Below, in pieces: positions 8,990 to 42,848 of a stretch of DNA of 64,000 nt; the stretch's first letter is position 1; every line of letters begins with the position of its first letter. Source of the DNA: Actinomycetospora soli (GTDB lineage: Bacteria > Actinomycetota > Actinomycetes > Mycobacteriales > Pseudonocardiaceae); contig NZ_JAJNDA010000009.1 of NCBI RefSeq assembly GCF_021026295.1, positions 62,001 to 126,000 on the forward strand, given 5' to 3'. The notes beneath the pieces were generated by a model, which saw only the letters and a list, made by a program, of their open reading frames with translations, was not told where the DNA came from and did not search any database. A program made the translations under genes and the position numbers.

Positions 8990-9819
8990 CCAGCACCGAG
9001 GTCCTGCTCACGACCGGGACCGGCCCGGCCGCCCCGGCCGGTCCCGCCCCGGCCCGGGACGACATCGCGCGGCCGGAGGACTCCGGGCGCTACAGCCTGC
9101 TCGTCTCACGCGACTCCGACGCCGTGCGCGCCGCGCAGCGGCTGCGCCACGACGTGTTCGCCGTCGAGCAGGGCGCCCGCCTCGCTCCCGGCACCGCGGC
9201 CGACGAGGGCCGCGACGAGGACCGCTTCGACGCCTTCTGCGACCACCTCATGGTCCGCGACGACACCGACGGCTCGATCGTCGGCACCTACCGCATGCTC
9301 ACCCCGGAGGGCGCGCTCGAGGCGGGCGGGCTGTACTCCGACACCGAGTTCGACCTGCGTCGACTCGACCCGCTGCGCCCGCGCCTCGTCGAGGTCGGGC
9401 GCTCCTGCGTGCACCCCGACCACCGCACCGGCACCGTGCTCTCCCTCGTCTGGGCCGGGATGTGGCGCTACCTGGTCCTCTCCGGGCACCGCTGGCTGAT
9501 CGGCTGCGCCAGCGTGCCGCTGACCGACGCCGGCGAGCTGCCCGGAGCGGTGTGGTCGCTGGTCCGCGAGAAGCACTACGCCCCCGACGAGCGTCGGGTC
9601 GTCCCGCACCGCCCGGCTCCCGTCGGTCCGGACGAGGGGCGCCGCGCGGCCCGCGCGCAGACCCCGCCGCTGCTGCGCGGCTACCTGCGCCTCGGCGCCG
9701 AGATCGGCGGGGCGCCCGCGGTCGACCACGACTTCGGCGTCGCCGACCTGCTCGTCCTGCTCGACCACACCGCGATCGACCCGCGCTGGCGCCGCCACCT
9801 GCTGGGGGAGGACGGATGA
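8986..9819 (+). CDS. olsB: OlsB-like N-acyltransferase (lyso-ornithine lipid synthesis)
   Basis: 277 residues of the GNAT-like OlsB family, which joins a 3-hydroxyacyl chain from ACP to the alpha-amino group of ornithine. Seen motifs: RLRHDVFAVEQGARL, FDAFCDHLMVRD, GTYRMLTPEGA, VEVGRSCVHPDHRTG and LIGCASVPLTDAG, all positioned as in OlsB. Residues 1-35 are a Pro/Ala-rich lead not expected in the family. Overlaps both neighbours by 4 nt (ATGA). The amino acid substrate is inferred from family, not proven. Confidence 0.82.
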   Translation: MTSTEVLLTTGTGPAAPAGPAPARDDIARPEDSGRYSLLVSRDSDAVRAAQRLRHDVFAVEQGARLAPGTAADEGRDEDRFDAFCDHLMVRDDTDGSIVGTYRMLTPEGALEAGGLYSDTEFDLRRLDPLRPRLVEVGRSCVHPDHRTGTVLSLVWAGMWRYLVLSGHRWLIGCASVPLTDAGELPGAVWSLVREKHYAPDERRVVPHRPAPVGPDEGRRAARAQTPPLLRGYLRLGAEIGGAPAVDHDFGVADLLVLLDHTAIDPRWRRHLLGEDG

Positions 9820-10733
9820 CGAGCTGGTTGCCGTCCTCGCCCTGCACCCCGGCCTGCCTGCCCGCTCCCCGTCCCGACGCCGGGTGGGCCCGGTTCCGGC
9901 GTCGGCTGCGGACCGTCGCGCGGATGACCGCCCTCGTCGCGGTGCTGCTCGTCGGCGTGCCGCTCGCGGCGCTCGCCCCGCTGCTCGGGCCGCGCCGCGT
10001 CGGCCGGGTGCAGGCGCTGTGGTGCTCCGCACTGCTCGGCGCCGCCGGGGTCACCGTGCGCGTCACCGGTCCGCGCCCGGTCGCCGGGTCGCTCGTCGTC
10101 GCCAACCACGTCTCCTGGCTCGACGTGCTCGCCCTGAACCGCATCACCCCGGTCCGCATGCTCGCCAAGGTCGAGGTGCGCACCTGGCCGCTGATCGGGG
10201 CGATGGCCGCCCGCGTCGGCACCGTGTTCCTCGAGCGGGACCGGCTCCGGGCCCTGCCCGCCGCGGTGGCCGCCGTCGCCGACGCCCTGCGCGACGGGGG
10301 CTGCGTCGGGGTGTTCGCCGAGGGCACCACCCGGTGCGGGCGCGACCTCGGCCGCTTCCGGCCCGCCGCCTTCCAGGCCGCCCTCGACGCGGGCGCGCCG
10401 GTCGTACCGGTGGCGCTGTCCTACGCCGACGCCGGCGGGACCGTCGACGCCACCGCCGCGTTCGTGGGGGACGACGACCTGTTCTCCTCGCTGCTGCGGG
10501 TCGCCGCCGCACCGCGCACCGTCCTCACCGTGCGGGTGCTGCCCGCGTGGACCGGCGCGGTCGACCGGTGCCCCGGTGACCGCACCCCCGTCCGCCGGGC
10601 CTGCGCCCGCGCGGCGTCGACGGCGATCGGGGCGGCACTGCCCGCCGCCGCGGCCGACCCCCGGCCGCTCCCGTCCGTGCACGTCGTGGCGCACCCGGTG
10701 GTGCGCCGTCCGGAGGTGACCCGTGCCGCCTGA
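9816..10733 (+). CDS. olsA: OlsA/PlsC-like 1-acyl-sn-glycerol-3-phosphate-type O-acyltransferase
   Basis: 305 residues. One membrane segment (ALVAVLLVGVPLAALAPLLG, residues 40-60) precedes the PlsC-type domain with NHVSWLD (H-x4-D catalytic motif), an EGTT motif, and VVPVALSYAD. In this context it should add the second acyl chain to lyso-ornithine lipid, as OlsA does; a role as a general lysophosphatidate acyltransferase cannot be excluded. The ATG at 9816 overlaps the OlsB stop, and the downstream methyltransferase GTG lies inside its last codons. Confidence 0.85.
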   Translation: MTSWLPSSPCTPACLPAPRPDAGWARFRRRLRTVARMTALVAVLLVGVPLAALAPLLGPRRVGRVQALWCSALLGAAGVTVRVTGPRPVAGSLVVANHVSWLDVLALNRITPVRMLAKVEVRTWPLIGAMAARVGTVFLERDRLRALPAAVAAVADALRDGGCVGVFAEGTTRCGRDLGRFRPAAFQAALDAGAPVVPVALSYADAGGTVDATAAFVGDDDLFSSLLRVAAAPRTVLTVRVLPAWTGAVDRCPGDRTPVRRACARAASTAIGAALPAAAADPRPLPSVHVVAHPVVRRPEVTRAA

Positions 10734-20838: not shown

Positions 20839-22248
20839 TCAGCTCAGGGGCCGCGTCGCGGCCTCGACCGAGAGCGGTGCCCCCGTCGGCAGCAGCCCGA
20901 TGACGGCCTGCGGGGCCGCGGTGAGGGTCCCGCCCAGTCCGAGCGCGGCCGCGGTCGGCGCGTCGGGCACACCGTGGACGGAGCCGGTGGCCGCGACGAC
21001 GACCAGGGCCCCGTCCTCCTCGCGCACCGCGATCCCCGTGCCGGGGAGCACCGCCCGGTCGGCGCGGTCGCCCGACCCGTCGGCCTGACGCAGGGCGACG
21101 CCCGGCGGCAGCGGGTCCGCCACCACGGTCACGCCCGCGCCGGGGCCCGCGCCGCGGTCGGCGCAGGCGGTCGGTGCCCGGTCCGGCGGCAGCGGCACGG
21201 GCGCCGGGTCGGGGTAGGCGGCGACGTCGACGGCCCGCGAGACGGGGGTGCTCGCCACCTGCGCGGGTGAGACCGTCGGGATCGGGACGCCGGCGAGCGC
21301 GGGGTCGTCGAGGCGGATCAGGCGCGCGAGGAGCTCGGGCACCACCTCGACGCCGTCGGTGAGCACCAGCAGGTAGGTGTCGGTGCTGCCGGCGCCGACG
21401 AGCCGGACGACGCCGCCGGCCCGCTCCCCGGCGAGGTCGACCGGCACCGGGGCGCCGCGGCGCGGGATCACGGGCGGCGTGATCGGCGGGGCCTCGGGCA
21501 GCGCGCTCAGGAACCCGCTGCTCGCGGGCCGCGGGAGCAGCCCGCCGAGTCCGAGGGCCTCCACGACGGCGGGTCGGGTGACGTCGAGCCGAGCCCGTGT
21601 GCCGCCGGAGACGAGCCACGTCCCGCCGGCCCGGTCCACCACGACGAGGCCCTCGGCCGGCGCGAGCGGACGCCCCGGCGGGCGGGGGCCGGCGAGCACC
21701 GTGGTCGTCGTGCGGGGGCGGGCCGCGTCGGGGACGGGGTCGGTGGTGTCGCAGACCGACCAGACCGCCGGCCCGGGGAGGTCGGGCGGCGGGAGCACGG
21801 GGGCGTCCACGATCCCGACCGGCCGGGCCCGCGGTGCGGCGGCGAGCACGTCGTCGTCGATCTCCACCGGGTCGGCCGGCACCGGTGCCCCGGCGACGGC
21901 CGCCGCCGCGAGCCGCGCCGACGCCAGGTTGGGGACCCCGATGAGGGCGGGCGGATCGGCCCGCGTCACCACGGCCAGCGCCCCGGACCGCTCGGCCACC
22001 ACGATCGCCGCGGTGCGCCAGTCGGCCGGCCGGTGCACGGCCCCGATCACGGCGGCCGCCCCCAGCCCCAGCGCGGCGAGCAGCGCGCCCGCGATCGTGG
22101 CGCGGGAGTGGGAGCGCAGCGGGTCGACCGCCGGCGCCGGGTCGCGCCGGACGAGCGCCGAGGTGAGACGGCGGGCCGAGAAGCGTGCCGCGGCCACCTG
22201 ACCCGTCGTCGCACCGCGGCGGCCGGGGGACTCGGGCGGGGCGGTCAT
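20839..22248 (-). CDS. eccB: Type VII secretion component EccB
   Basis: 469 residues. The start shows the EccB pattern TTGQVAAARFSARRLTSALVRRD, a single membrane helix (TIAGALLAALGLGAAAVIG, about 50-70), and a large external domain with VCDTT, TYLLVLTDGVEVVP, and a final ALGLGGTLTAAP...ATRPLS. EccB forms the periplasmic-side part of the ESX membrane complex with EccC, EccD and EccE. None of those partners lies in the window, so this copy is either an orphan or serves an ESX locus elsewhere. Key repeat-domain features look intact. Confidence 0.9.
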   Translation of the reverse strand: MTAPPESPGRRGATTGQVAAARFSARRLTSALVRRDPAPAVDPLRSHSRATIAGALLAALGLGAAAVIGAVHRPADWRTAAIVVAERSGALAVVTRADPPALIGVPNLASARLAAAAVAGAPVPADPVEIDDDVLAAAPRARPVGIVDAPVLPPPDLPGPAVWSVCDTTDPVPDAARPRTTTTVLAGPRPPGRPLAPAEGLVVVDRAGGTWLVSGGTRARLDVTRPAVVEALGLGGLLPRPASSGFLSALPEAPPITPPVIPRRGAPVPVDLAGERAGGVVRLVGAGSTDTYLLVLTDGVEVVPELLARLIRLDDPALAGVPIPTVSPAQVASTPVSRAVDVAAYPDPAPVPLPPDRAPTACADRGAGPGAGVTVVADPLPPGVALRQADGSGDRADRAVLPGTGIAVREEDGALVVVAATGSVHGVPDAPTAAALGLGGTLTAAPQAVIGLLPTGAPLSVEAATRPLS

Positions 22249-25352: not shown

Positions 25353-26684
25353 ATGCGAGCGATCCGGCCGTTGCGGCACCCGGCGTACCGGTGGTTGGCG
25401 GGCAACCTCGCCTTCTCGGTCCTCGCCGAGGGCCTGTGGGTCGTGGCGCTGGTGTGGCAGGTCGTCGCGCTGGGTGGCGGGCCGGCGCAGCTGTCGGTGA
25501 TCAGTGCCGCCCTGGCCGTCGGGGTCCTGGTCACGGCCCTGCCGGGCGGCGTCCTGGCCGACCGGGTGCCGCAGCGTCGGATCCTGGTCCTCGTGGCTGC
25601 CCTCCAGGCCGGGGCGGTCGGTGTGGTGGCGGCGCTGTCGGTCGCCGGCCTGCTCGGCTGCGCCGCCCTGACCGTCGCGGCCCTCCTGATCGGCGTCGCG
25701 GGCGGCCTCATGTTCCCGGCCTACTCCGCGCTGGTGCCGCGGCTGGTCCCCGCCGACGAGCTGCAGGCGGTCAACGGGCTGGAGGGCATGCTGCGGCCGG
25801 CGCTGCTCAACGCCGGCGGGCCCGCCCTCGCGGGCGTGGTCGTCGCCGCGGCCGGGCCCGGGCCGGCGCTGGCGGTGGTCGCCGCGGCCGCGGCCGCCGC
25901 GCTCGTCTGCGCGGTCGGACTGCCGCGTGCCGCCCCACCGGCCGCCGGGACCGGCGAGGAGAGCTCGACCGGCTCGCCGCTCGCCGACCTGCGCGAGGGC
26001 CTCCGCTACATGCTGCGCACCCGGTGGCTGCTGGTGACCCTGCTGTTCGCCTCGGCGATGATCCTCGTGGTGCTCGGGCCGATGGAGGTGCTGGTGCCCT
26101 TCGCGGTCAAGGACCGGGCGGGCGGCGGGCCGGCCGAGCACGCCTTCGTCCTCGCCATGTTCGGGCTCGGCGGGTTCGTCGGGTCGTTCCTCGCCGGGTC
26201 GATGCGCCCGCCGCGGCGCTACCTCACCGCGATGATCTCGGTGTGGGCGGTCGGCTGCCTGCCGATGGCGGTGTTCGGTCTCGCGGGCTCGCTGGCGCCG
26301 ATGGCAGTGGCGGCGTTCGTCGTCGGGGTGCTGTTCAACGCCCCGCAGGTGCTGTGGGGGACGCTGCTGCAGCGGCGGGTCCCGCGCGCGCTGCTGGGGC
26401 GGGTGTCGAGTCTGGACTTCTTCGTCTCACTGGCGTTCATGCCGGTGTCGATGGCGTTGGCCGGGCCGGTGAGCACCGCGGTCGGGCTGACGCCGGTGTT
26501 CCTCGTCGCGGGGATCGCCCCGGTGCTGATCGGTGCGGTCGCGCTGCTGCTCGGGCGGCTCGGCCCGGACGAGCTCGCCCACCCCATGGACGGCTTGGAC
26601 GGGGCCGACGCCGACGCCGACGGCCCGGCCACCGTGGTGGCCGGGCCGAGGGAGGAGGAGGTCAGCCCGCGGTCGGCGCGGTGA
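25353..26684 (+). CDS. MFS transporter (MFS_3, EntS-like drug/siderophore exporter group)
   Basis: 443 residues with about 12 membrane helices. The N-terminus RAIRPLRHPAYRWLAGNLAFS and the loop GGVLADRVPQRRILV (A-type MFS motif G-x-x-x-D-R) are typical of the DHA3/EntS subgroup, which exports siderophores or macrolides. The C-terminal 30 residues are acidic. ATG 25353 is chosen; GTG 25344 is possible. The 3' end overlaps the convergent GT39 gene by 23 bp. No biosynthetic cluster nearby indicates a substrate. Confidence 0.87.
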   Translation: MRAIRPLRHPAYRWLAGNLAFSVLAEGLWVVALVWQVVALGGGPAQLSVISAALAVGVLVTALPGGVLADRVPQRRILVLVAALQAGAVGVVAALSVAGLLGCAALTVAALLIGVAGGLMFPAYSALVPRLVPADELQAVNGLEGMLRPALLNAGGPALAGVVVAAAGPGPALAVVAAAAAAALVCAVGLPRAAPPAAGTGEESSTGSPLADLREGLRYMLRTRWLLVTLLFASAMILVVLGPMEVLVPFAVKDRAGGGPAEHAFVLAMFGLGGFVGSFLAGSMRPPRRYLTAMISVWAVGCLPMAVFGLAGSLAPMAVAAFVVGVLFNAPQVLWGTLLQRRVPRALLGRVSSLDFFVSLAFMPVSMALAGPVSTAVGLTPVFLVAGIAPVLIGAVALLLGRLGPDELAHPMDGLDGADADADGPATVVAGPREEEVSPRSAR

Positions 26685-28746
26685 GGTCGTAGACCGTCTG
26701 CCCGCCGACGGTGGTCGCCGTGTAGTGCTCGGACACCCAGGTCGTGATCTGCGTGCCGACCGAGTCGGAGCCGCCCTGGCCGCCCATGCCGCCGCCGTCA
26801 CCGGAGGCGAGCAGGTAGTGGACCTCGCCCGCGGCGACCATGGCCTGGAACTGCTCGAGGGTCGGCGCCGCGTCGGAGCCGCTCCACCCGCCGATCGCCA
26901 TGACGGCCGTGCCGGTGGAGAGCTCCAGCGAGGCCGCGCTCTGCGAGCCGACCACCGCGGCCGACCAGGTGGTGCCGGCCTGCTGCAGCAGCGTGGTGAG
27001 CTCGGCGGAGGTCGTCAGGCCACCGGGGCCGCCCTGAGCGCCCCCGCCCTGGCCGCCCGGTTGCCCGGACCCGGCGTCGGGACGCTGACCCGAGGGCGGC
27101 TGACCCCCCTGCCCGCCCTGACCACCGGGTCCACCCTGACCGCCGGGACCGCCGCCCGCTCCGCCGTCGGCACTCGCCGGACCGGCCGAGACGATCGAGC
27201 CGGAGTGGGTCGTGGCGGCCGTGTCCAGCGCGTAGGCCACCGAACCGCCTGCCCCGGCCAGCACGGCCCCGACCAGCAGCACCGGCAGCGCGCGGTGCGC
27301 CCAGGCGCGGCGGGTCACCGCGCCGGCGAGCAGCCCGAGGACCGCGACGACGCCGACGACCGCGACGACCCAGCGCAGCCAGGGCAGGAACTCGGGCGTG
27401 CGACGCAGCAGCACGACGCTCCACGCGGTCGTGGCGGCGAGGGCGGCGACGAGCGCGAGGCGGGCGGTCCAGAGCTCGCGGCGGCGCCACAGCAGGCCCC
27501 CGCCGACGGCCAGGGTCCCGGCCAGACCCGGCGCCATCGCCACCGCGTAGTAGGCGTGCACGGTCCCGCTCATGAAGCTGAACACCAGCGCGTGCACCAG
27601 CAGCCAGCCGCCCCAGAGGACGAGCCCGGCCCGGGTGCGGTCGGTCCGCCCGGCCCGCCGCGTGATCCAGAGGCCCGCGACCAGCACGATCAGCGCGGCC
27701 GGCAGCAGCCAGCTGATCTGGCCGCCGAACGACTCGTTGAACATCCGGGTGATCCCGGTCGAGCCGCCGAAGCCGGTGTTGCCGGAGCCGCCGCCGGGGC
27801 CGCCGCTGCCGCCGCCGTTGCCCGAGCCGCCGAGGATGCGGCCGAGCCCGTTGTAGCCGAGCACGAGGTCGAGGAAGGAGTTGTCGGTCGAGCCGCCGAT
27901 GTAGGGGCGCTCGGAGGCCGGCCACAGGTCGACCAGCAGCACGTACCAGCCGGTCGAGACGACCATGGCGACCAGACCGACCGCCAGCAGCGCGAGCCGC
28001 CGTCGCCAGGACACGGCGGCGGCCAGCACGATCACGGCGGCGAGCGCGGGCAGGACGAGCCAGGCCTGCAGCATCTTCGTCAGGAAGCCGAGGCCGAGCA
28101 GGGCGCCGGTCGCGGCGGTCCACCCGAGGCCGGCCCGGCGGTGCGCGACGTCGACCGCGCGGACCGTGGTGTACGCGGCGGCGGTCATGGCGAGCACGAG
28201 CAGGGCGTCGGGGTTGTTGAAGCGGAACATGAGGACCGCCACCGGCGTGAGCGCCAGCAGGGCCCCCGCCGCGAGCCCGGCACCGGGGCCGGCCCAACGG
28301 CGCACGGCCGCGCGCAGCAGGGCCACCGACGCGATGCCCATGAGCGCCTGCGGCACGAGCATCGACCACGCGCCGAAGCCGAACAGGCGTCCGGACAGAC
28401 CCATGACCCACAGTGCGGCCGGGGGCTTGTCGACGGTGATGAAGTTCGACGCGTCCAGGGACCCGAACAGCCAGGCCTTCCACGACTGCGTGCCCGCCTG
28501 GACCGCGGCGGCGTAGAACTCGTTGGCGGTGCCGCTCGCGCCCAGGTCCCAGAGGTAGAGCAGGGCTGTCCCGACGAGCAGCGTCAGGAGCAGGGGGCGT
28601 TCCCAGGGCGGGGCGTCGTCCGGGCCGCGCCACCGGGCGCGGGGCGGGCGGGCGTGACGGGCCCCGGCCCGCGCGTCCGGCGCCGACCGGGGTGCCGGAC
28701 GGGGTGCGGGCCGCGCGGCGGCACGCAGGTGGGTCGTCGTGGTCAT
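26662..28746 (-). CDS. ArnT/YkcB-like GT39 membrane glycosyltransferase
   Basis: 694 residues. A basic N-terminus precedes 10-12 membrane helices. LLYLWDLGASGTANEFYAAA, the D-K-P-P element in FITVDKPPAALWVMGL, and IGGSTDNSFLDLVLGYNG mark the YkcA/B-type polyprenyl-phosphate sugar transferases. A Gly-rich loop lies near residue 300 and a Gly/Pro/Gln-rich linker near 530. The external C-terminal domain (LLQQAGTTWSAAVVGSQSAA...) ends the protein. A paralogue is at 40791-42848. It probably moves a lipid-linked sugar to an envelope glycopolymer; donor and acceptor are unknown. Confidence 0.85.
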   Translation of the reverse strand: MTTTTHLRAAARPAPRPAPRSAPDARAGARHARPPRARWRGPDDAPPWERPLLLTLLVGTALLYLWDLGASGTANEFYAAAVQAGTQSWKAWLFGSLDASNFITVDKPPAALWVMGLSGRLFGFGAWSMLVPQALMGIASVALLRAAVRRWAGPGAGLAAGALLALTPVAVLMFRFNNPDALLVLAMTAAAYTTVRAVDVAHRRAGLGWTAATGALLGLGFLTKMLQAWLVLPALAAVIVLAAAVSWRRRLALLAVGLVAMVVSTGWYVLLVDLWPASERPYIGGSTDNSFLDLVLGYNGLGRILGGSGNGGGSGGPGGGSGNTGFGGSTGITRMFNESFGGQISWLLPAALIVLVAGLWITRRAGRTDRTRAGLVLWGGWLLVHALVFSFMSGTVHAYYAVAMAPGLAGTLAVGGGLLWRRRELWTARLALVAALAATTAWSVVLLRRTPEFLPWLRWVVAVVGVVAVLGLLAGAVTRRAWAHRALPVLLVGAVLAGAGGSVAYALDTAATTHSGSIVSAGPASADGGAGGGPGGQGGPGGQGGQGGQPPSGQRPDAGSGQPGGQGGGAQGGPGGLTTSAELTTLLQQAGTTWSAAVVGSQSAASLELSTGTAVMAIGGWSGSDAAPTLEQFQAMVAAGEVHYLLASGDGGGMGGQGGSDSVGTQITTWVSEHYTATTVGGQTVYDLTAPTAG

Positions 28747-30298: not shown

Positions 30299-31057
30299 AT
30301 GCTGACCCGGATCGACCTGAACGCCGACGCGGGGGAGAGCCTCGGGCTCTGGACGCTCGGGCACGACACCGCGCTCATGGAGCACGTGACCTCGGTGAAC
30401 GTCGCCTGCGGCTACCACGCGAGCGACCCGGTGACGATGCGCGAGGCGGTGCGCACCGCCGCCGCGACGAACACCGCGATCGGGGCCCACCCGGGCCTGC
30501 CCGACCTCGTGGGCTTCGGCCGCCGGCGCATGGCGCTGCGCCCGGACGAGGCCGCGCAGATCGTCGTCTACCAGGTGGGGGCCCTGCAGGCGACGGCTGC
30601 GGTGGAGGGCGCCGAGGTGGTGCACGTGAAGCCGCACGGCGCCCTCTACGGCATGGCGCTGACCGACGACGCCATCACCACCGCGATCACCGAGGCCGTG
30701 CTGCGCCTCGACCCGGACCTGATGCTGTTCTGGCTCGCCGGGCCCACCGCCGACCTCGCGCGCTCCCTCGGCGCGAAGGTGGCCCGCGAGGGGTTCGCCG
30801 ACCTCGAGTACGACGACGAGGCCCACATCATCGTCGAGCCCCGGCCGATGGCGAAGGACCCGGCCGCCGTCGCGCAGCAGGCCGTGGACCTGCTGGAGGG
30901 GCACGTGACCTCGACGTCCGGGAAGCACCTGGACGTCGAGGTCGACACCATCTGCCTGCACGGCGACCGCCCGAACTCGCCGGACATCTGCGCGGCGATC
31001 GTCGCGCGGTTCGACGAGCTGGGCGTCGAGCGGGTGCCCGCGCTGCAGCTCGTCTAG
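30299..31057 (+). CDS. pxpA: PxpA (LamB/YcsF), 5-oxoprolinase subunit A-like
   Basis: 252 residues, full length. RIDLNADAGESLG at the start, NVACGYHASDP, IGAHPGLPDLVGFGRR, VKPHGALYG and CLHGDRP are the family's conserved metal/active-site motifs. PxpA works with PxpB and PxpC in ATP-dependent opening of 5-oxoproline to glutamate. Here PxpB, PxpC and two biotin proteins are encoded on the opposite strand and converge on this gene; both stop codons share CTAG at 31054-31057. That arrangement means pxpA is separately transcribed from its presumed partners. Confidence 0.92.
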   Translation: MLTRIDLNADAGESLGLWTLGHDTALMEHVTSVNVACGYHASDPVTMREAVRTAAATNTAIGAHPGLPDLVGFGRRRMALRPDEAAQIVVYQVGALQATAAVEGAEVVHVKPHGALYGMALTDDAITTAITEAVLRLDPDLMLFWLAGPTADLARSLGAKVAREGFADLEYDDEAHIIVEPRPMAKDPAAVAQQAVDLLEGHVTSTSGKHLDVEVDTICLHGDRPNSPDICAAIVARFDELGVERVPALQLV

Positions 31058-32391
31058 CCGAGGAGCCGCTCGAGGGTCGTGATGTCGTGGGTGCCGTCGA
31101 CGAGCGCGGGCTCGTCGACGAGGCGCCGGTGCAGCCCGAGCGTGGTCGGCACCCCCTCGACGCGGTACTCGGCGAGCGCGCGGCGGGCCCGGGCGAGGGC
31201 CGTCGCGCGGTCCGGTCCCCAGACCGCGAGCTTCGCGACCATCGAATCGTAGAACGGCGGGATCACGTCGCCGACGGCGAGCGCGGTGTCCACCCGCACG
31301 CCCGGGCCGCCGGGCAGCTCGAGCGCGGTGATCTCGCCGGGGCTGGGCAGGAAGTCGTCGTCGGGGTCCTCGGCGTTGACCCGGAACTCGACGGCGCTGC
31401 CGCGGACCGCCACCTCGTCCTGGGTCACCGAGAGCGGGCGGCCGTCGGCGACGCGCAGCTGCTCGGCGACGAGGTCCACCCCGGTAACCAGCTCACTGAC
31501 CGGGTGCTCGACCTGGATGCGGGTGTTCATCTCGATGAAGAAGAACTCCCCCTCCTCGACGAGGAACTCCACCGTGCCGGCGCCGACGTATCCGACCTCC
31601 CGGGCGAGGTCCGCGGCCGCGGTGCACATCCGCTCCCGCAACGCCGGGTCGAGCCCGGGCGCGGGCGCCTCCTCCACCAGCTTCTGCCGCCGGCGCTGCA
31701 GCGAGCAGTCCCGCTCGCCGACGTGCACCACCGCGCCGTGGCGGTCGGCGAGCACCTGCACCTCGACGTGCTTGGGGGCCCGCAGCATCCGCTCCAGGTA
31801 GACCGCGTCCGACCCGAACGCCGACGCCGCCTCGCGGCGGGCCTCGTCGACCACGCGCCGCAGCTCGTCGTCGTCCGACGCCGGACGGATGCCGCGGCCC
31901 CCGCCGCCCGCGGACGCCTTGACCAGGACCGGGTAGCCGACCTCGGCGGCCGCCGCGACCGCGTCGTCGACCGAGGCGACCACCCCGCTGCCGGGCACCA
32001 CCGGCACCCCGGCCGCCTGCGCCGTCGCGCGGGCGGTCGCCTTGTCGCCCATCCGCTCGATGACCTCGGCCGCGGGGCCGACCCAGGTGAGGCCGGCGTC
32101 GGCGACGGCGCGGGCGAAGGCGGCGTTCTCGGAGAGGAAGCCGTAGCCGGGGTGGACGGCGTCCGCGTCCGACTCCCGCGCGGCCGCGAGGAGCGCCTCG
32201 GCGTTGAGGTAGCTCTTCCCGGCCGACGACTTCCCGACGTGCACGGCCGCGTCGGCGTGCCGCACGTGCGCGGCGCCGGCGTCCGCGTCGGAGTACACGG
32301 CCACCGCGCGCAGCCCGAGGTCCCGGCAGGCCCGCACGACCCGCAGGGCGATCTCGCCGCGGTTGGCGACCAGGACCGACCTGATCGTCAC
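31054..32391 (-). CDS. Biotin carboxylase subunit (AccC-like) of a split biotin-dependent enzyme
   Basis: 445 residues, the length of a free-standing biotin carboxylase. IRSVLVANRGEIALRVVRA begins the fold; KASAGGGGRGIRP is the ATP-grasp glycine loop; HVEVQVLADRHGAVVHVGERDCSLQRRRQKL and FIEMNTRIQVEHPV are catalytic segments. GTG 32391 overlaps the carrier-protein stop as GTGA. It carboxylates biotin on the adjacent carrier with ATP and bicarbonate. The usual acetyl-CoA carboxyltransferase subunits are absent; the neighbouring PxpB/PxpC (AHS1/AHS2) proteins match the carboxyltransferase part of urea carboxylase, so the acceptor is probably an amide (inference). Confidence 0.9.
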   Translation of the reverse strand: MTIRSVLVANRGEIALRVVRACRDLGLRAVAVYSDADAGAAHVRHADAAVHVGKSSAGKSYLNAEALLAAARESDADAVHPGYGFLSENAAFARAVADAGLTWVGPAAEVIERMGDKATARATAQAAGVPVVPGSGVVASVDDAVAAAAEVGYPVLVKASAGGGGRGIRPASDDDELRRVVDEARREAASAFGSDAVYLERMLRAPKHVEVQVLADRHGAVVHVGERDCSLQRRRQKLVEEAPAPGLDPALRERMCTAAADLAREVGYVGAGTVEFLVEEGEFFFIEMNTRIQVEHPVSELVTGVDLVAEQLRVADGRPLSVTQDEVAVRGSAVEFRVNAEDPDDDFLPSPGEITALELPGGPGVRVDTALAVGDVIPPFYDSMVAKLAVWGPDRATALARARRALAEYRVEGVPTTLGLHRRLVDEPALVDGTHDITTLERLLG

Positions 32392-32627
32392 GTGTCCAGC
32401 TCCACCAGCTCCTGACCGATGGTCACCTCGTCCTCGTCGTCCACGTGCCAGGTCGAGACCGTGCCCGCGGCGTCCGCCTTCACCTCGCGGTAGGTCTTCA
32501 TCACCTCGATCAGCCCGATGACGTCGCCCTCGGCGACCGTGGCGCCGTCGGCGACGTAGGGCTCGGCGTCGGGGGAGGGCTTGCGGTAGAAGACGCCCGG
32601 GGTCTTCGCGGTGATGGTGTGTCCCAT
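32388..32627 (-). CDS. Biotin carboxyl carrier-type protein
   Basis: 79 residues, a bare biotinyl domain. The biotin-accepting lysine lies in LIEVMKTYREV, and flanking DGATVAEGDVIGLIEV and VTIGQELVELD complete the fold. It lacks the long N-terminal thumb and Pro/Ala linker of AccB from acetyl-CoA carboxylase. It lies 9 bp after pxpC and overlaps the biotin carboxylase gene, so it is the mobile arm of the same enzyme. Confidence 0.9.
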   Translation of the reverse strand: MGHTITAKTPGVFYRKPSPDAEPYVADGATVAEGDVIGLIEVMKTYREVKADAAGTVSTWHVDDEDEVTIGQELVELDT

Positions 32628-32636
32628 GGGTGCTCC

Positions 32637-33608
32637 TCAGGCCAGCGCGGTGCGGATGCGGTCGAGCTGGGCGGCCCGGTCGCGGCGGATGGTCAGGGCC
32701 TCGTCGAGGTCGACGGCGACGAAGCGCGTGCGGTCGCCGGTCTTGGTCTGGGCGAGGCGGTCGCGGTCGACCGAGACGACGGTGCCGAGGGTGGCGTAGC
32801 CGCCCCCGGTGACCGCGTCCTGCAGCAGGACGATCGGCTCCACCCCGCCGGGGACCTGGACCGACCCGACGGGGTAGCCGCAGTCGGTGACGTTGGCCGG
32901 GTCGCTGCCCGCCCCGAACGGCTGCTCGCGCGGCACGAACTCCAGCTCCGCCCCGCGGTAGCGGTACCCGACCCGGTTGGCGTCGGGCGTCACCTTCCAG
33001 GCGGTGTCGGTGAACCGCTCGAGGCTGTCCGGGGTGAGCCGGTAGCTGTGCAGGCCCACGAGCAGGCGCAGCTCGGCGATCTCCGGGTAGGTCGGCACGT
33101 CGTCGTCGGACAGCCGCCGGCCCGCCCGCGGGGACACGGCGTCGTCGCCCAGGGTCAGCTCGTCGCCCTCGGCGAGGCCACGGCCGCCGAAGCCGCCCAT
33201 CCCGACGAGGGTGTAGGTCGAGCGGCTGCCGTAGACCGCCGGGACGTCGATGCCGCCCGCGACCGCGACGTAGGGCCGCGCCCCGCCCGTGAGCTGCCCG
33301 AAGGCGAGGGTCTGCCCCGCCCGGACCGCGACCGACTCCCACGTGGGGACCGCCTCGCCGTCGAGCGTGGCCGGGATGTCCGCGCCGGTCACCGCGATCA
33401 CGGTGTCCGCGGTGAACTCCAGCGTCGGGCCGAGGTAGACCGCCTCCAGCGCCGCGGCGCCGGGCGCGTTGCCCACCAGGGCGTTGCCCACGTGGTAGGC
33501 GAACGAGTCCAGCGCCCCGGAGGGCGGGAAGCCGATCGCGTAGTGCCCGAAGCGGCCGGTGTCCTGCACGGTCGTCTCGAGGCCGGGGTCGTGCACGAGG
33601 ATGCTCAT
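32637..33608 (-). CDS. pxpC: PxpC (KipA/AHS2), 5-oxoprolinase subunit C / biotin-dependent carboxyltransferase family
   Basis: 323 residues. ILVHDPGLETTVQDTGRFGH, GFPPSGALDSFAYHVGNALVG (PxSGxxD motif), AVTGADIPATLDG, and a late GGYATLGTVVSVDRDRLAQ are family signatures. The AHS2 domain forms, with AHS1, the carboxyltransferase of urea carboxylase and the catalytic half of prokaryotic 5-oxoprolinase. ATG 33608 overlaps the pxpB stop by 4 nt, showing coupling. Confidence 0.92.
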   Translation of the reverse strand: MSILVHDPGLETTVQDTGRFGHYAIGFPPSGALDSFAYHVGNALVGNAPGAAALEAVYLGPTLEFTADTVIAVTGADIPATLDGEAVPTWESVAVRAGQTLAFGQLTGGARPYVAVAGGIDVPAVYGSRSTYTLVGMGGFGGRGLAEGDELTLGDDAVSPRAGRRLSDDDVPTYPEIAELRLLVGLHSYRLTPDSLERFTDTAWKVTPDANRVGYRYRGAELEFVPREQPFGAGSDPANVTDCGYPVGSVQVPGGVEPIVLLQDAVTGGGYATLGTVVSVDRDRLAQTKTGDRTRFVAVDLDEALTIRRDRAAQLDRIRTALA

Positions 33609-34510
33609 CGGTACAGGGCCTCCAGCATCGCGGCGTTCGTGCCGTCCGGGTCGGCGAGGAAACGGCTCGGCGAGAAGTCCACGGGGGCGGTGCGGTAGCG
33701 CCACTGCTTCGCGGCGACCTGCTCGCGGACCTCGTCGTACCCGGCCTCGTCGACGCGACGGAAGTTGATGACGTCGCCGTGGCGGAAGAACACCACGGAG
33801 TCGTTCTCCGCGAAGTCCGGCTGCTCCTGCGCGGCGTCGAAGATCGGGGCCGGGGCGGAGCCGAACAGCTGGTACCCGCCGGCGCCCTTCACCGGGTAGA
33901 TCACCGCGAACGCGCCCCCGAAACCGAAGGCGCGCTCCGGGGTCTCGGTCCGCGGCCGGATGTACTTCGGCACCTCGACCTGGCGTTCCCGGGGGACGAG
34001 CTGGAAGCACCAGGGCAGGCCGGGGACGAACCCCATCATCGTGACGAGGTACGGCGAGCCGGCGAGTGCGTCGATGAACGCCTCGGTGGTGTCGTAGCCG
34101 TTGATCCGGGCCCCGTAGTCGAGGTCGGTGCCGTTCGGGTCCTGGTGGCGGTCCCGGAACTTCATGAGGACCTCGTGGGTCCACGGGTCGTTCAGCATGA
34201 TCGGCACGTCGACGATGCGGGTGTCGATGGTGAACGACGGGTCCGCGGACGCCTTGTCCCCGACCTCGGACTCGATGCGCTGCAGCTCCCGCACGAGGTC
34301 GCGCGGGTGGAGCCGGTCGGGGTCGACCCGCACCATGTACGACGCGTTCGACGGGCAGATCTCCTCGACGCCCGGGATCGCCTCCTCGGCGAGGCGCCGC
34401 GTGATCGCCAGCGCGGTGAAGTGCGCGGGCAGGCTCATCGCGGTGGACACCTCGGCGTAGACGAACTCGTCGCCGCCGTGGTCGTAGCGGATGCCCTCGT
34501 GCTCGGCCAT
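33605..34510 (-). CDS. pxpB: PxpB (KipI/AHS1), 5-oxoprolinase subunit B-like
   Basis: 301 residues, longer than the roughly 230-240 of B. subtilis KipI, by an N-terminal extension and an insert. EEICPSNASYMVRVDPDRLHPRDL, then AGSPYLVTMMGFVPGLPWCF (the MGFxPGxP motif) and PVKGAGGYQLFGSAP are the AHS1 core. It pairs with PxpC. A kinase-inhibitor (KipI) role is not likely because no sporulation kinase is involved. TGA of the molybdopterin subunit and ATG of this gene share one base (TGATG at 34512-34508). Confidence 0.9.
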   Translation of the reverse strand: MAEHEGIRYDHGGDEFVYAEVSTAMSLPAHFTALAITRRLAEEAIPGVEEICPSNASYMVRVDPDRLHPRDLVRELQRIESEVGDKASADPSFTIDTRIVDVPIMLNDPWTHEVLMKFRDRHQDPNGTDLDYGARINGYDTTEAFIDALAGSPYLVTMMGFVPGLPWCFQLVPRERQVEVPKYIRPRTETPERAFGFGGAFAVIYPVKGAGGYQLFGSAPAPIFDAAQEQPDFAENDSVVFFRHGDVINFRRVDEAGYDEVREQVAAKQWRYRTAPVDFSPSRFLADPDGTNAAMLEALYR

Positions 34511-36873
34511 CAGGACACCTTGGCCGCGTCGGCGAGGGCGCGCCAGACCTGCTGCGGCGTCGTCGGCATGTCGAGGTGGGTCACCCCGCGTGCCGCGACC
34601 GCGTCGATCACCGCGTTCACGACGGCGGGGGAGGACCCGATGGCCCCCGACTCGCCGATGCCCTTGACGCCCATCGGATTGGTCGGCGACGGCGTGACCC
34701 GCTGCTCGAGGTCGAAGCCCGGCAGGTCGGAGGCCGCGGGGATGGCGTAGTCGGCCATCGTCGCGGTCGTCGGCTGCCCGGCCTCGTCGTAGGTGGCGTG
34801 CTCGTAGAGCGCCTGCGCGATGCCCTGCGCGATGCCGCCGTGCAGCTGCCCGTCGACGATCGTCGGGTTGACGATCCGCCCGCAGTCGTCGACGGCGACG
34901 AACCGGCGGATCGTCGTGAAGCCGGTCTCGGTGTCCACCTCGACCACGCAGACGTGCGTGCCGAACGGCCACGTGAAGTTCGGCGGGTCGAAGTGGTAGT
35001 CGGCCGTGAGGTTCGGCTCCATGCCCTCGGGCAGATTCGCGGCGAGGGAGGCCGCCCCGGCCACCTCCTGGATGGTCACCGCGGCGTCGGTGCCCCGCAC
35101 CGCGAACCGGCCGTCGGCGAAGTCGAGGTCCTCCTCGGCGGCCTCGAGCAGGTGCGCCGCGATCGTCCGGGCCTTCGAGACCACCTTCTCGGCGGCTCCG
35201 AACACCGCGGTCCCGCCGACGGCGAGGCTGCGCGATCCGTAGGTGTCGCGGCCGAACGGCGCGATCATCGTGTCCGAGTGCAGCACCTCGATGTCGGCGG
35301 GATCGATGCCGAGGGCGTCGGCGGTGATCTGCGCCCACGCCGTCTCGTGGCCCTGGCCGTGCGGGCTGGTGCCGGTGACCACCTCGGCCCGCCCGGCGGT
35401 CGTCATGCGGACGGTCGCGGCCTCCCAGCCGCCGGACTGCAGCCGGACGCCCGCCGCCACCTTGGACGGGGAGAGCCCACCGGACTCGGTGAAGTTGCCG
35501 ATCCCGATGCCCAGCTCGACGTGGTCGCCCCGGCGGCGGCGCTCGGCCTGCTCGGCGCGCAGGGCGTCGTAGTCGACGAGCTCGAGCGCCCGGCGCATGC
35601 AGGGCTCGTAGTCCCCGGAGTCGTAGAGCACCCCGCTCGGCACCGTGCGCGGCTCGGAGAACGCCGGGTGCAGGTTGCGCAGCCGCAGTTCGGCGGGGTC
35701 CATCTCCAGCGCGCGGGCGAGGTCGTCGAGGATGCGCTCGTGGGCGTAGGCCGCCTCCGAGCGGCCCGCGCCGCGGTAGGCGTCGGTCGGGGTGAGGTTG
35801 GTGAACACCCCGCGGCACTCGAAGTCGTAGGCGCCGAAGTCGTAGAGCCCGCAGTAGGTGAACGCGCCGAACACGGCGATGCCGGGCGTGAGCAGCTGCA
35901 GGTAGGCGCCCATGTCGGCGACCAGCCGGATGCGCATGCCGAGGATGCGGCCGTCCTTCGTCGCCCCGACGGTCATGTACTGGACCTGACCGCGCCCGTG
36001 GGTGGTGGCGACGTGGTGCTCGGACCGGGTCTCGGTCCACTTCACCGGCTTCCGCAGCCGCCGCGCGAGGACGAGGGCCAGTGCCTCCTCGGCGTAGACG
36101 TTGAGCTTCGCGCCGAACCCACCGCCGACGTCGGGGGCGACGACGCGGAGCTTGGTGTCGGACACCCCGCAGATCGCCGCGAGGATGTCGCGGACGAAGT
36201 GCGGCACCTGCGTCGCGGTGTGGACGGTGAAGCCGCCGCCGTACGCGTCGGGCGTGACGACCACGGCGCGCGTCTCCATCGGGCTCGGCAGCACGCGCTG
36301 CTGCACGTAGCGGCCCTCGACGACGACGTCGGCCTCGGCGAACGCCGCGTCGACGTCCCCGACGGCGAGCGGCCAGGTGTAGCAGTGGTTGGTGCCGAAC
36401 TGCTCGTGCACCAGTGGCGCGCCCGGCTCCAGCGCGGCCTCCACGTCCACGACGGCGGGCAGCTCGTCGTAGTCGACGACCACCAGTTCGCTCGCGTCGC
36501 GGGCCGCCGTCGGGCTCGTCGCCACGACGACCGCGACGCCGTCCCCGACGTGGTTGACCTCCCCGCGGGCCAGCGGCATGTGCTCGGGCACGAGGATGTC
36601 CTCGGTGACCGGCCACCCCGTCGGGATGCCGGCGACGAACTCGCCGGCGACGTCCTCGCCGGTGAGCACCGCGACCACGCCCGGGTGCTCCCGCGCGGCC
36701 GTGGTGTCGATCCCGGTGATCCGGGCGTGGGCCACGGGGCTGCGGACGATCGCGAGGTGCACGGTGCCGGGCGGGGTGATGTCGTCGGTCCAGGTCCCCC
36801 GACCGGTGAGGAGGGCCTCGTCCTCCCGGCGCGGGAGGCTCTGTCCGACGAAGGGCGATCTGGTCTGGGTCAC
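34510..36873 (-). CDS. Molybdopterin-binding large subunit of a xanthine dehydrogenase/CO dehydrogenase-family hydroxylase
   Basis: 787 residues, full length for CoxL-like subunits. VGQSLPRREDEALLTGRGTW begins the a/b hammerhead domain; APDVGGGFGAKLNVYAEEA and GTSPHGQGHETAWAQI bind the Mo cofactor; GVKGIGESGAIG holds the catalytic Glu. The active-site loop is AYRGAGR, the form II type, not AYxCSFR of true CO dehydrogenase. Such enzymes hydroxylate aldehydes or N-heteroaromatics. The usual FAD and 2Fe-2S subunits are not adjacent, so they must be elsewhere. First gene of the five-gene biotin/oxoprolinase operon. Confidence 0.9.
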   Translation of the reverse strand: MTQTRSPFVGQSLPRREDEALLTGRGTWTDDITPPGTVHLAIVRSPVAHARITGIDTTAAREHPGVVAVLTGEDVAGEFVAGIPTGWPVTEDILVPEHMPLARGEVNHVGDGVAVVVATSPTAARDASELVVVDYDELPAVVDVEAALEPGAPLVHEQFGTNHCYTWPLAVGDVDAAFAEADVVVEGRYVQQRVLPSPMETRAVVVTPDAYGGGFTVHTATQVPHFVRDILAAICGVSDTKLRVVAPDVGGGFGAKLNVYAEEALALVLARRLRKPVKWTETRSEHHVATTHGRGQVQYMTVGATKDGRILGMRIRLVADMGAYLQLLTPGIAVFGAFTYCGLYDFGAYDFECRGVFTNLTPTDAYRGAGRSEAAYAHERILDDLARALEMDPAELRLRNLHPAFSEPRTVPSGVLYDSGDYEPCMRRALELVDYDALRAEQAERRRRGDHVELGIGIGNFTESGGLSPSKVAAGVRLQSGGWEAATVRMTTAGRAEVVTGTSPHGQGHETAWAQITADALGIDPADIEVLHSDTMIAPFGRDTYGSRSLAVGGTAVFGAAEKVVSKARTIAAHLLEAAEEDLDFADGRFAVRGTDAAVTIQEVAGAASLAANLPEGMEPNLTADYHFDPPNFTWPFGTHVCVVEVDTETGFTTIRRFVAVDDCGRIVNPTIVDGQLHGGIAQGIAQALYEHATYDEAGQPTTATMADYAIPAASDLPGFDLEQRVTPSPTNPMGVKGIGESGAIGSSPAVVNAVIDAVAARGVTHLDMPTTPQQVWRALADAAKVS

Positions 36874-40790: not shown

Positions 40791-42848
40791 ATGAGCACCG
40801 TCGCCGACGCGCCCGCGTCGACCGCCCCGCCCGAACCACCCGTCGTCGGGAACACCCCGGCCGATCCGCGCTGGGTCCGGCCCACCTTCTGGGTCCTGCT
40901 CGCCGCCACCGCGGTGACCTACCTGTGGAACCTCGGCGCCTCCGGCTACGCCAACTCGTTCTACGCGGCCGCCGTGCAGGCCGGGACGCAGTCGTGGAAG
41001 GCCTGGCTGTTCGGCGCGCTGGACGCCCCGGGCCTCATCACCGTCGACAAGCCCCCGGCCTCGTTGTGGGTCATGGCGCTGTCGGGGCGGATCTTCGGGT
41101 TCTCGTCGTGGTCGCTGCTCGTGCCGCAGGCGCTGATGGGCGTCGCGTCGGTCGCGTTGGTGTACGTGACGTGTCGACGCTGGTCGGGGCCCCGGACGGC
41201 CCTCGCCGCGGCTGCGCTGCTGGCCTTCATGCCGGTCGCCGCGCTCATGTTCCGGTTCGACAATCCCGACGCGATGCTCGTGCTCTGCATGGTCGCCGCC
41301 GCGGCCGTGACGGTGCGGGCGGTCGACGCGGCCGGCACCCGGGCGGGTACCTGGTGGCTCGTCGCGGCGGGCGCGCTGGTCGGGCTCGGGTTCCTGACGA
41401 AGCAGCTGCAGGTCATGCTCGTCGTCCCCGGTCTCGCCCTCGTGTACGCGGTCGTCGCGCCCACCACGCTGCGACGGCGGATCGGTGACCTGCTGGCCGC
41501 GGGGGTCGCGGTCGTCGTCTCCGCCGGCTGGTACGTCGCGCTCGTCGAGCTGTGGCCCGCGGCCGACCGGCCCTACATCGGCGGGTCGACGGACAACTCC
41601 CTGCTCGAGCTCGCCCTCGGTTACAACGGCTTGGGTCGCATCCTCGGCAACGAGCGCGGTGGCGGTGGCGGTGGCGGTGCCGGGGCCGGGCCGGGCGGGA
41701 TGCCGGGTGGGATGCCGGGTGGGATGCCGGGGGGCGGGATGCCGCCCGGCGGAGGCCCCGGCGGCGGCGGGTTCGGCGGGTCGCCGAGCCCCTGGCGGAT
41801 GCTCACCGCGGAGTTCTCCGGCAACGCGTCCTGGCTGCTGCCGGCCGGGTTCGTGCTGCTCGTGGCCGGTCTGTGGTTCACCCGCCGCGCGCCGCGGACC
41901 GACCGGACCCGCGGGCTGCTGCTCCTCGGCGGCGCGTGGATGCTCGTCCACACCGTCGTCTTCTCCGCGATGAGCGGGATCATCCACCCCTACTACACGG
42001 TTGCGCTCGCCCCCGGCGTCGCCGTCACGGCCGCCGCCGGCGCGTCGGTCCTGTGGCGCGCCCGGGCGTCGCTCGGGGCCCGGATCGTGCTCGCGGTCGT
42101 CGTGCTCGGGACCGCGGTGTGGAGCGCCGTCGTCCTGACCCAGGCGGACGCGCTGTCCTGGCTGCGCTGGGTCGTCGTGGTCGCCGGGGTCCTCGGCGCG
42201 GTCGGGCTGCTGCTGCCGCGGCTGACCGGACGGCGCGTCGGCGCGGTGGCGGTCGCCGTGCTCGCGCTGATCGGGACGGTCGGCGCCTCGACCGCCTTCG
42301 CCGCGGTGACCGCCGCGACGCCGCACCAGGGCTCGATCGTCTCCGCCGGGGCGAACTCCGGGATGGGCGGACCCGGCGGGATGCGACGCGGTGACGACCG
42401 ACGTCCCGGTGGTCAGCGCGGTGGCCCGGAGGGCGAACAGGCCTCGCCGCAGCTCGTCGCGCTGCTGCAGGGCGCCGGCACCCGGTGGGCGGCCGCGACC
42501 ACGGGCGCCATGAGCCAGGCCTCGATCCAGCTCGCCGCGGGCGTGCCGGTGATGGCCCTCGGCGGCTTCAGCGGGAGCGACCCGGCGCCCACGCTCGCCC
42601 AGTTCCAGGAGGACGTCGCGACCGGCCAGGTCCGGTACTTCGTCCAGGGCGGAGGCCCCGGCGGCGGGGGACCGGGTGGTTTCGCGACGCCGGGTGGGGC
42701 CGGTTCCGGCACGGACCGCGCCGACCGCGGTGGGTTCGGCGGCGGCCGCGGTACGAGCGGTGAGATCGCCACGTGGGTCACGACCCACTTCACGAGGATC
42801 GACGTGGGCGGGAGGACCGTCTACGACCTGGGCCGTCCGCTCGCCTGA
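40791..42848 (+). CDS. ArnT/YkcB-like GT39 membrane glycosyltransferase (paralogue)
   Basis: 685 residues and the same plan as the protein at 26662-28746: VTYLWNLGASGYANSFYAAA, ITVDKPPASLWVMAL, SLLVPQALMGVASVALVYV, IGGSTDNSLLELALGYNGLG. A loop after the last motif is almost pure Gly/Met/Pro, made by in-frame copies of a 12-15 nt unit (41695-41745). The external C-terminal domain starts LLQGAGTRWAAATTG. It probably takes a polyprenyl-phosphate sugar from the preceding GT2-GtrA protein and transfers it outside the membrane. One dispersed 14-mer copy lies near its start. Confidence 0.86.
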   Translation: MSTVADAPASTAPPEPPVVGNTPADPRWVRPTFWVLLAATAVTYLWNLGASGYANSFYAAAVQAGTQSWKAWLFGALDAPGLITVDKPPASLWVMALSGRIFGFSSWSLLVPQALMGVASVALVYVTCRRWSGPRTALAAAALLAFMPVAALMFRFDNPDAMLVLCMVAAAAVTVRAVDAAGTRAGTWWLVAAGALVGLGFLTKQLQVMLVVPGLALVYAVVAPTTLRRRIGDLLAAGVAVVVSAGWYVALVELWPAADRPYIGGSTDNSLLELALGYNGLGRILGNERGGGGGGGAGAGPGGMPGGMPGGMPGGGMPPGGGPGGGGFGGSPSPWRMLTAEFSGNASWLLPAGFVLLVAGLWFTRRAPRTDRTRGLLLLGGAWMLVHTVVFSAMSGIIHPYYTVALAPGVAVTAAAGASVLWRARASLGARIVLAVVVLGTAVWSAVVLTQADALSWLRWVVVVAGVLGAVGLLLPRLTGRRVGAVAVAVLALIGTVGASTAFAAVTAATPHQGSIVSAGANSGMGGPGGMRRGDDRRPGGQRGGPEGEQASPQLVALLQGAGTRWAAATTGAMSQASIQLAAGVPVMALGGFSGSDPAPTLAQFQEDVATGQVRYFVQGGGPGGGGPGGFATPGGAGSGTDRADRGGFGGGRGTSGEIATWVTTHFTRIDVGGRTVYDLGRPLA
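40838..40851 (-). repeat. Copy of the dispersed 14-mer
   Basis: Exact copy inside the start of the GT39 paralogue, read there as PPVVGN. Confidence 0.7.

Follow-up and report, generated by a model that had tools for sequence, protein, structure and literature searches.

Why should a full set of genes related to the 5-oxoprolinase PxpABC be joined in one block to a biotin carboxylase (BC), a biotin carboxyl carrier protein (BCCP) and the molybdenum (Mo) subunit of a hydroxylase? The question is raised by positions 30299-36873 of a 64,000-nucleotide stretch of Actinomycetospora soli DNA (contig NZ_JAJNDA010000009.1, positions 62,001 to 126,000; hereafter the window), taken from a genome of 6.52 Mb. 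The answer that we favour, with moderate confidence, is that the block encodes a split urea-carboxylase-like, biotin-dependent amide (lactam) hydrolase made of PxpABC, BC and BCCP, with the Mo subunit, CoxL, probably supplying the cyclic amide.

The gene block and its carboxyltransferase site

Five genes lie head to tail on the minus strand: coxL for the large (Mo) subunit of a xanthine-oxidase-family hydroxylase (34510-36873, 787 aa), pxpB of the AHS1/CT_C_D type (33605-34510, 301 aa), pxpC of the AHS2/CT_A_B type (32637-33608, 323 aa), the BCCP gene (32388-32627, 79 aa) and the BC gene (31054-32391, 445 aa). Their junctions, in this order, measure -1, -4, +9 and -4 bp, and pxpA (LamB/YcsF type, 30299-31057, plus strand, 252 aa) converges on the BC gene with a 4-bp overlap. 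An earlier note on this DNA had described such a five-gene run with a converging PxpA, and the coordinates bear it out. The identities it gave to all six genes are likewise upheld by Pfam (LamB_YcsF in PxpA; Biotin_carb_N, CPSase_L_D2 and Biotin_carb_C in BC; Biotin_lipoyl in BCCP; CT_A_B in PxpC; CT_C_D in PxpB; Ald_Xan_dh_C, MoCoBD_1 and MoCoBD_2 in CoxL) and by NCBIfam, together with the AYRGAGR motif of CoxL, the alignment of PxpB, the biotin lysine and NF005457 match of BCCP, and characteristic residues of BC and of the PxpA subfamily.

The part list of urea carboxylase, namely BC, a KipA+KipI-type carboxyltransferase and BCCP, is complete in this block as separate genes. No single gene reaches the 1303.85-bit cut-off of the urea carboxylase model TIGR02712, the best scores being those of BC (523.2), PxpC (246.7) and PxpB (96.2), and a plain urea carboxylase was set aside for this reason. 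Against the 5-oxoprolinase equivalogs, PxpB scored 63.6 bits (cut-off 145.55) and PxpC 212.9 (cut-off 500), both missing and both scoring lower than against urea carboxylase, while PxpA passed its subfamily model NF003814 (276.9 over 226) and reached none of the three listed PxpA equivalog models.

In the carboxyltransferase site of urea carboxylase, the conserved Lys1605 is most likely the general base and its replacement, K1605A, severely inhibits the enzyme, according to an excerpt of PMC5770610. On alignment, Lys182 of the window PxpB faces position 1012 of 3va7, corresponding to 1605 in the full-length Kluyveromyces lactis urea amidolyase. In the printed rows of the PxpB alignment, this lysine is common to the module (the pxpABC, BC and BCCP set), to urea carboxylases and to Lys-type pairs without BC; arginine appears there only in L001 and L052 (compared loci carry L numbers), which are one gene, the canonical copy of the host. 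Arginine was found in 31 of 31 canonical PxpB sequences (gathered with the host's canonical copy as query, plus Escherichia coli), and printed alignments place it at the same site in the solved KipI, YbgJ and MSMEG_0435.

A quick tree of PxpC+PxpB, with the lysine column omitted, included 14 canonical rows, 10 urea carboxylases (plus two related pairs) and 53 module rows, leaving out 15 near-copy loci and all further canonical rows; canonical, urea carboxylase and module clades stand apart with support of 99-100 in the Shimodaira-Hasegawa-like approximate likelihood ratio test (SH-aLRT), the only support measure calculated. Judged from these sequences, module PxpB and PxpC are of separate ancestry from canonical PxpBC. 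The AlphaFold models of PxpB and PxpC (mean predicted local distance difference test, pLDDT, of 92.8 and 87.8) have K. lactis urea amidolyase as their best structural match, tied with E. coli YbgK in the case of PxpC. PxpB is also longer, at 301 aa against 201 in the host's canonical copy and 218 in E. coli. On the side of biotin, the BCCP lysine (Lys44) is kept in 53 of 53 relatives, and BC retains 11 of the 12 E. coli AccC positions that were compared.

An ordinary PxpABC 5-oxoprolinase, in which BC and BCCP play an accessory part or are simply unrelated neighbours, would account for the passing score of PxpA, and at several loci (L049, L050, L051, L078 and L079) pxpABC with a Lys-type PxpB does stand without BC or BCCP nearby, an observation that also counts against our own reading. 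However, PxpB and PxpC miss the equivalog cut-offs and the canonical arginine of PxpB is replaced by lysine, the two grounds on which plain PxpABC was rejected; moreover, the window PxpA lacks both the Arg and the Asn of canonical PxpA, with Leu in place of Arg, and linkage to BC/BCCP recurs in four groups of organisms. The host genome also encodes a separate set, comprising a further PxpB-PxpC pair, which follows an Nramp-type gene on contig C5, and another PxpA, encoded on contig C41; these carry the canonical Arg in PxpB and both Arg and Asn in PxpA. Since a separate pair and a PxpA with canonical residues are available, the window block is not simply the 5-oxoprolinase of the organism, and this explanation appears unlikely to us. 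The second-site Asn of PxpA is found in none of 60 module-linked rows as against 21 of 24 canonical rows. The replacement of Arg by Leu was considered as a mark of the whole module and discarded, as Bacillota, Rubrobacter and most proteobacterial modules retain Arg.

Taken together, the PxpB lysine, the BCCP lysine, the retained BC positions and the conservation of the unit make a carboxylation-dependent ring-opening enzyme the best reading, and the proposal of the earlier note that the enzyme is carboxylation-dependent and not a plain PxpABC is thereby supported at the level of sequence. Biotin-borne carboxylation activates nitrogen ahead of hydrolysis in urea carboxylase, as an excerpt of PMC5770610 describes; phosphorylation of 5-oxoproline by canonical PxpB and PxpC is assumed to precede its opening by PxpA, according to PMC13274462; and of the three mechanisms put forward for caprolactamase in a section of PMC8453981, one relies on carboxy activation of the lactim. 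Placing biotin-borne carboxylation ahead of PxpA gives the mechanism proposed here. BC would carboxylate biotin on the small BCCP, using ATP and bicarbonate, and PxpC and PxpB, as a putative complex with these, would jointly act as the carboxyltransferase with Lys182 as general base. The carboxyl group would pass to the ring nitrogen (or the lactim oxygen) of a cyclic amide, activating the ring carbonyl, so that PxpA could hydrolyse the C-N bond and the N-carboxy product could lose CO2 to leave an open amino acid. In some lineages this product is probably an omega-amino acid that is passed to a class-III aminotransferase.

Distribution and neighbours of the module

PxpB of this subfamily was found in 20 of 298 genomes of the host's order (E <= 1.9e-80), the next matches lying at ~1e-30, and an NF005457 BCCP adjoins it in 16 of these 20. 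The strongest NF005457 matches (at least 100 bits) lie beside subfamily PxpB in 16 of 17 cases, the exception being genome G239. The window PxpB shares 97% identity with its A. chiangmaiensis counterpart and 83-89% with those of the remaining Actinomycetospora found, and among its named relatives are Rubrobacter, Nocardiopsis, Brevibacillus, Neobacillus, Ammoniphilus, Mycolicibacterium, Gordonia and Pseudonocardia. Plasmid records with a PxpB match of any type (E <= 1e-5) number 536. In all 14 plasmid regions read, which were chosen from the better PxpB matches (one Rubrobacter, seven haloarchaea and six proteobacteria), PxpA, BCCP, BC, PxpB and PxpC occur within ~10 kb. The set is present in Actinomycetota, Bacillota, Proteobacteria and haloarchaea, and the recurrence of the block without coxL in four major groups indicates that the arrangement is more than chance. 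No description of a BC-BCCP-PxpABC module was found in the open-licence literature; an excerpt of PMC3199775 pointed out in 2011 that the halves of the urea-carboxylase carboxyltransferase exist separately in some bacteria and Thermococcales, unstudied at that time.

The same distribution bears on the idea that BC and BCCP are a spare acetyl-CoA carboxylase pair for fatty-acid synthesis, standing by chance beside pxpBC. Their NCBI names say so, and BC passes NF006367 (640.5 over 597) and BCCP NF005457 (112.6 bits against a cut-off of 87); but BC narrowly misses TIGR00514 accC (616.6 of 626.5), BCCP misses TIGR00531 (64.5 of 115.2), and the pair stands with pxpABC in every one of the 14 plasmid regions. 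We consider this explanation highly improbable. As a main reading, a fatty-acid acetyl-CoA carboxylase was rejected because the carboxyltransferase genes adjoining BC and BCCP are of the CT_A_B and CT_C_D, that is urea-carboxylase/PxpBC, types and the set recurs with pxpABC. The family NF005457, to which the small BCCP at 32388-32627 belongs, itself bears the name acetyl-CoA carboxylase, and module relatives in the plasmid records read therefore carry that product name.

The module is not uniform in its layout. L044 has no BCCP or PxpA match, and Gordonia L080 has a fused BC-BCCP located downstream. The Brevibacillus and Ammoniphilus loci have, downstream of the module, another pxpBC pair of the Lys type (L070:13211-17083, L071:14415-18237, L068:15173-16989), preceded in L070 by a sigma-54 activator, with a gene of the same cluster at that place in L071. 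Neighbour counts rest on tblastn because our home-made open reading frame caller misses genes (as seen in L068, L083, L085 and L086), and L077 was read piecewise. A 52-kb plasmid of Rubrobacter indicoceani (NZ_CP031117.1, L081) carries the entire module and a lone CoxL that is 74% identical to the window CoxL; the module there lies between a site-specific integrase and trfA, an arrangement suggestive of transfer as a unit.

The surrounding genes provide some hints about the substrate. By tblastn, 22 of 62 loci have a class-III aminotransferase match in the vicinity of the module, namely nine of Actinomycetospora, two genomes of another genus of the family, two of Mycolicibacterium, one each of Gordonia, Pseudonocardia and an uncultured actinobacterium, and six haloarchaeal plasmids; because many of them are closely related, they do not represent 22 independent events, and the host genome itself has six class-III aminotransferase genes in 6.5 Mb. 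The match counted at L107 is a fragment, and an annotated but cut copy lies at the end of that locus. The eight aminotransferases scanned span different subfamilies. At L067, a gamma-aminobutyrate (GABA) transaminase (562.5 over 506.65) stands beside a fragment closest to succinate-semialdehyde dehydrogenase (271.3 bits, which for its length is below the cut-off), and between BC and pxpB there is a biotin-transporter gene of the BioY family (5234-5782). Acidiphilium L085 has an annotated bioB (9294-10274) after pxpC, so that biotin-related genes adjoin the module in two unrelated lineages; across the 62 loci, matches to BioY, BioB and amidase number 1, 1 and 13. The neighbours lean towards a lactam as substrate and an omega-amino acid as the product of ring opening, biotin-supply genes accompanying the module only occasionally, and they agree in part with the lactam-opening reading.

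A different substrate class would make the enzyme a biotin-dependent carboxylase acting on a nitrogen compound that is open-chain or a ureide (of the urea, guanidine, biuret or hydantoin type), with PxpA hydrolysing the carboxylated product. Urea carboxylase is the closest fold and the closest Lys-type relative, the module of Haladaptatus L107 is accompanied by a cytosine permease, an amidohydrolase and a Zn-dependent hydrolase, and in Rhizobium L109 a Zn-dependent hydrolase lies upstream. On the other hand, the partner PxpA is known from a lactam, 5-oxoproline, and is not an allophanate hydrolase; the module forms a clade of its own and GABA-pathway genes are present at L067. We regard this alternative as improbable, although a little less so than an ordinary 5-oxoprolinase. 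Farther from the block within the window, YkcB/PMT_2-type mannosyltransferase-like genes are seen on both flanks (26662-28746, minus strand; 40791-42848, plus strand), and at a greater distance there is an EccB-like type VII secretion gene (20839-22248, minus strand).

The molybdenum subunit

CoxL would most likely be the Mo subunit of an enzyme oxidising the carbon beside the nitrogen of an N-heterocycle or cyclic imine to yield the cyclic amide, and it would borrow CoxM and CoxS subunits encoded elsewhere. Of the 62 loci, 26 have coxL next to the module, namely the window, 10 further Actinomycetospora, five genomes of a related genus, seven Bacillota, two Rubrobacter (R. marinus in pieces) and Diaphorobacter. 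The five-gene order, for which the earlier note proposed a neighbourhood search and whose absence from every other genome it would have counted as a refutation, recurs within the genus. Among 15 other Actinomycetospora loci, a full-length coxL is located upstream of pxpB-pxpC-BCCP-BC in 10, being directly adjacent in eight and separated by a ~1.4-kb insert in two; it is split across two frames in one (L054:7636-9970) and absent from four sister-species loci (L033, L053, L056 and L057), which retain the rest of the module. Remnants are visible at L033:10288-10359, matching the last 24 codons at 96% identity, and as a weak 26-residue match at L053:9897-9974. A home-made Nei-Gojobori (NG86) estimate of the ratio of nonsynonymous to synonymous substitution rates (Ka/Ks) is ~0.2 for coxL against four relatives. 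Being constrained and yet lost from some sister species, coxL looks useful but separable from the module.

In the CoxL tree, the linked CoxL of actinobacteria, 18 in all, group in a single clade (100/99), even though the gene may precede pxpB or follow either BC or BCCP. The seven Bacillota linked CoxL form a second clade and the Diaphorobacter CoxL a third, on a very long branch. The tree omits the duplicates L111-L116 and matches with no more than 700 aligned columns (L054), and it takes its unlinked rows from the host's order and the host genome alone; a single gain and two losses would in principle suffice to explain its three label changes. In a survey of the 298 genomes (three candidates scored per genome, E <= 1e-150), six CoxL among the matches listed are at least 60% identical to that of the window, all beside subfamily PxpB, and no other CoxL among them lies within 25 kb of a subfamily PxpB.

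CoxM and CoxS accompany CoxL in the Bacillota and Diaphorobacter loci. Within the window there is no CoxM or CoxS match, which, like the loss of coxL in sister species, counts against the favoured reading, and searches of the 18 actinobacterial loci with Bacillota and Diaphorobacter queries gave no CoxM and a single CoxS, at L058, ~5.6 kb away. The host genome has six CoxM and seven CoxS matches, all outside the contig of the window; one CoxS match (C11:209430-209666) is on a contig without CoxL or CoxM matches. Two further CoxL homologues of the host (C1:147808-150084 and C33:35147-37411) have no CoxM or CoxS match nearby. An aerobic carbon monoxide dehydrogenase (CODH) was also considered and rejected: CoxL scores 693 of the 991.15 bits needed for the model TIGR02416, its motif is AYRGAGR and not AYXCSFR, the active-site motif of the form-I enzyme, and the window lacks CoxM and CoxS matches.

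CoxL may instead be a separate enzyme that shares only the transcript and has no part in substrate supply. This would suit a lone large subunit, its absence or splitting at five of the 15 other Actinomycetospora loci while the module is kept, and the presence in the host of at least two other CoxL without nearby CoxM/CoxS matches. It sits less easily with the single actinobacterial clade found despite three positions relative to the module, with the two other kinds of Mo-hydroxylase that adjoin the module in Bacillota and Diaphorobacter, and with the Ka/Ks value. We hold it to be rather doubtful, though the most serious of the alternatives. The suggestion of the earlier note that a Mo-hydroxylase is the partner of the module is therefore retained in part: such a gene recurs beside the module at three places of the CoxL tree, but CoxL does not define the unit, because sister species without it retain the remainder.

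Weighing of the reading and comparison with known systems

Several further observations weigh against a biotin-dependent lactam hydrolase. The BC position of His236 is Arg in the window protein. NF005457 exceeds its cut-off in 39 of the 298 genomes and stands beside this PxpB in 16, so that weaker members occur elsewhere, and in six of seven Bacillota loci BCCP is present while BC is absent nearby. Only one of the eight aminotransferases scanned, that of L067, passes the GABA-transaminase cut-off, and one from a haloarchaeon barely passes the glutamate-1-semialdehyde aminomutase model; by tblastn, the window locus has no aminotransferase, amidase or biotin-gene match. The PDB entry 9yx5, 'Structure of the long chain acyl-CoA carboxylase complex from Mycobacterium smegmatis with MSMEG_0435-MSMEG_0436 bound', which also contains the AccA3 subunit, has to be considered from both sides. 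It shows that a biotin carboxylase complex can bind a PxpBC-type pair, a point in favour of the general idea; however, the bound pair is Arg-type, and arginine may therefore not mean biotin-free. No paper naming this entry was found in the open-licence literature.

A broader and more tentative proposal can be made, to which we give somewhat less than even weight: the module may represent a widespread third class of KipI/KipA biotin enzymes of bacteria and haloarchaea, masked by acetyl-CoA carboxylase and 5-oxoprolinase annotations, in which carboxybiotin, instead of adding carbon, activates a lactam that PxpA then hydrolyses; in several lineages a Mo hydroxylase would feed it, so that N-heterocycles are first oxidised and then opened. 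Should this be correct, genes that bear those two annotations would together make up a single catabolic enzyme with a new use of biotin, and a physiological role would be suggested for a group of uncharacterised CoxL-like proteins.

Amongst known systems, urea carboxylase/urea amidolyase (TIGR02712; K. lactis 3va7 and 5i8i) shares with the module BC, BCCP and a KipA+KipI-type carboxyltransferase with its lysine, whereas the module is split over four genes, forms its own clade and has PxpA instead of an allophanate hydrolase domain. PxpABC 5-oxoprolinase has homologous PxpA, PxpB and PxpC, but the module differs in its PxpB lysine, longer PxpB, other PxpA residues and the inclusion of BC and BCCP in the operon. 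The complex 9yx5 resembles it in combining a PxpBC-type pair with a biotin carboxylase complex, and differs in the Arg-type pair. Caprolactamase CapAB likewise opens a lactam in an ATP- and bicarbonate-related reaction, with carboxy activation of the lactim as one proposal, although it consists of unrelated hydantoinase/oxoprolinase-type proteins without biotin, according to the section of PMC8453981 mentioned above. Finally, the window CoxL belongs to the same family of xanthine-oxidase-type Mo-hydroxylases as the CoxL of 8uem and quinoline 2-oxidoreductase (1t3q), and unlike these it is a lone large subunit, below the CODH cut-off and tied to a biotin module.

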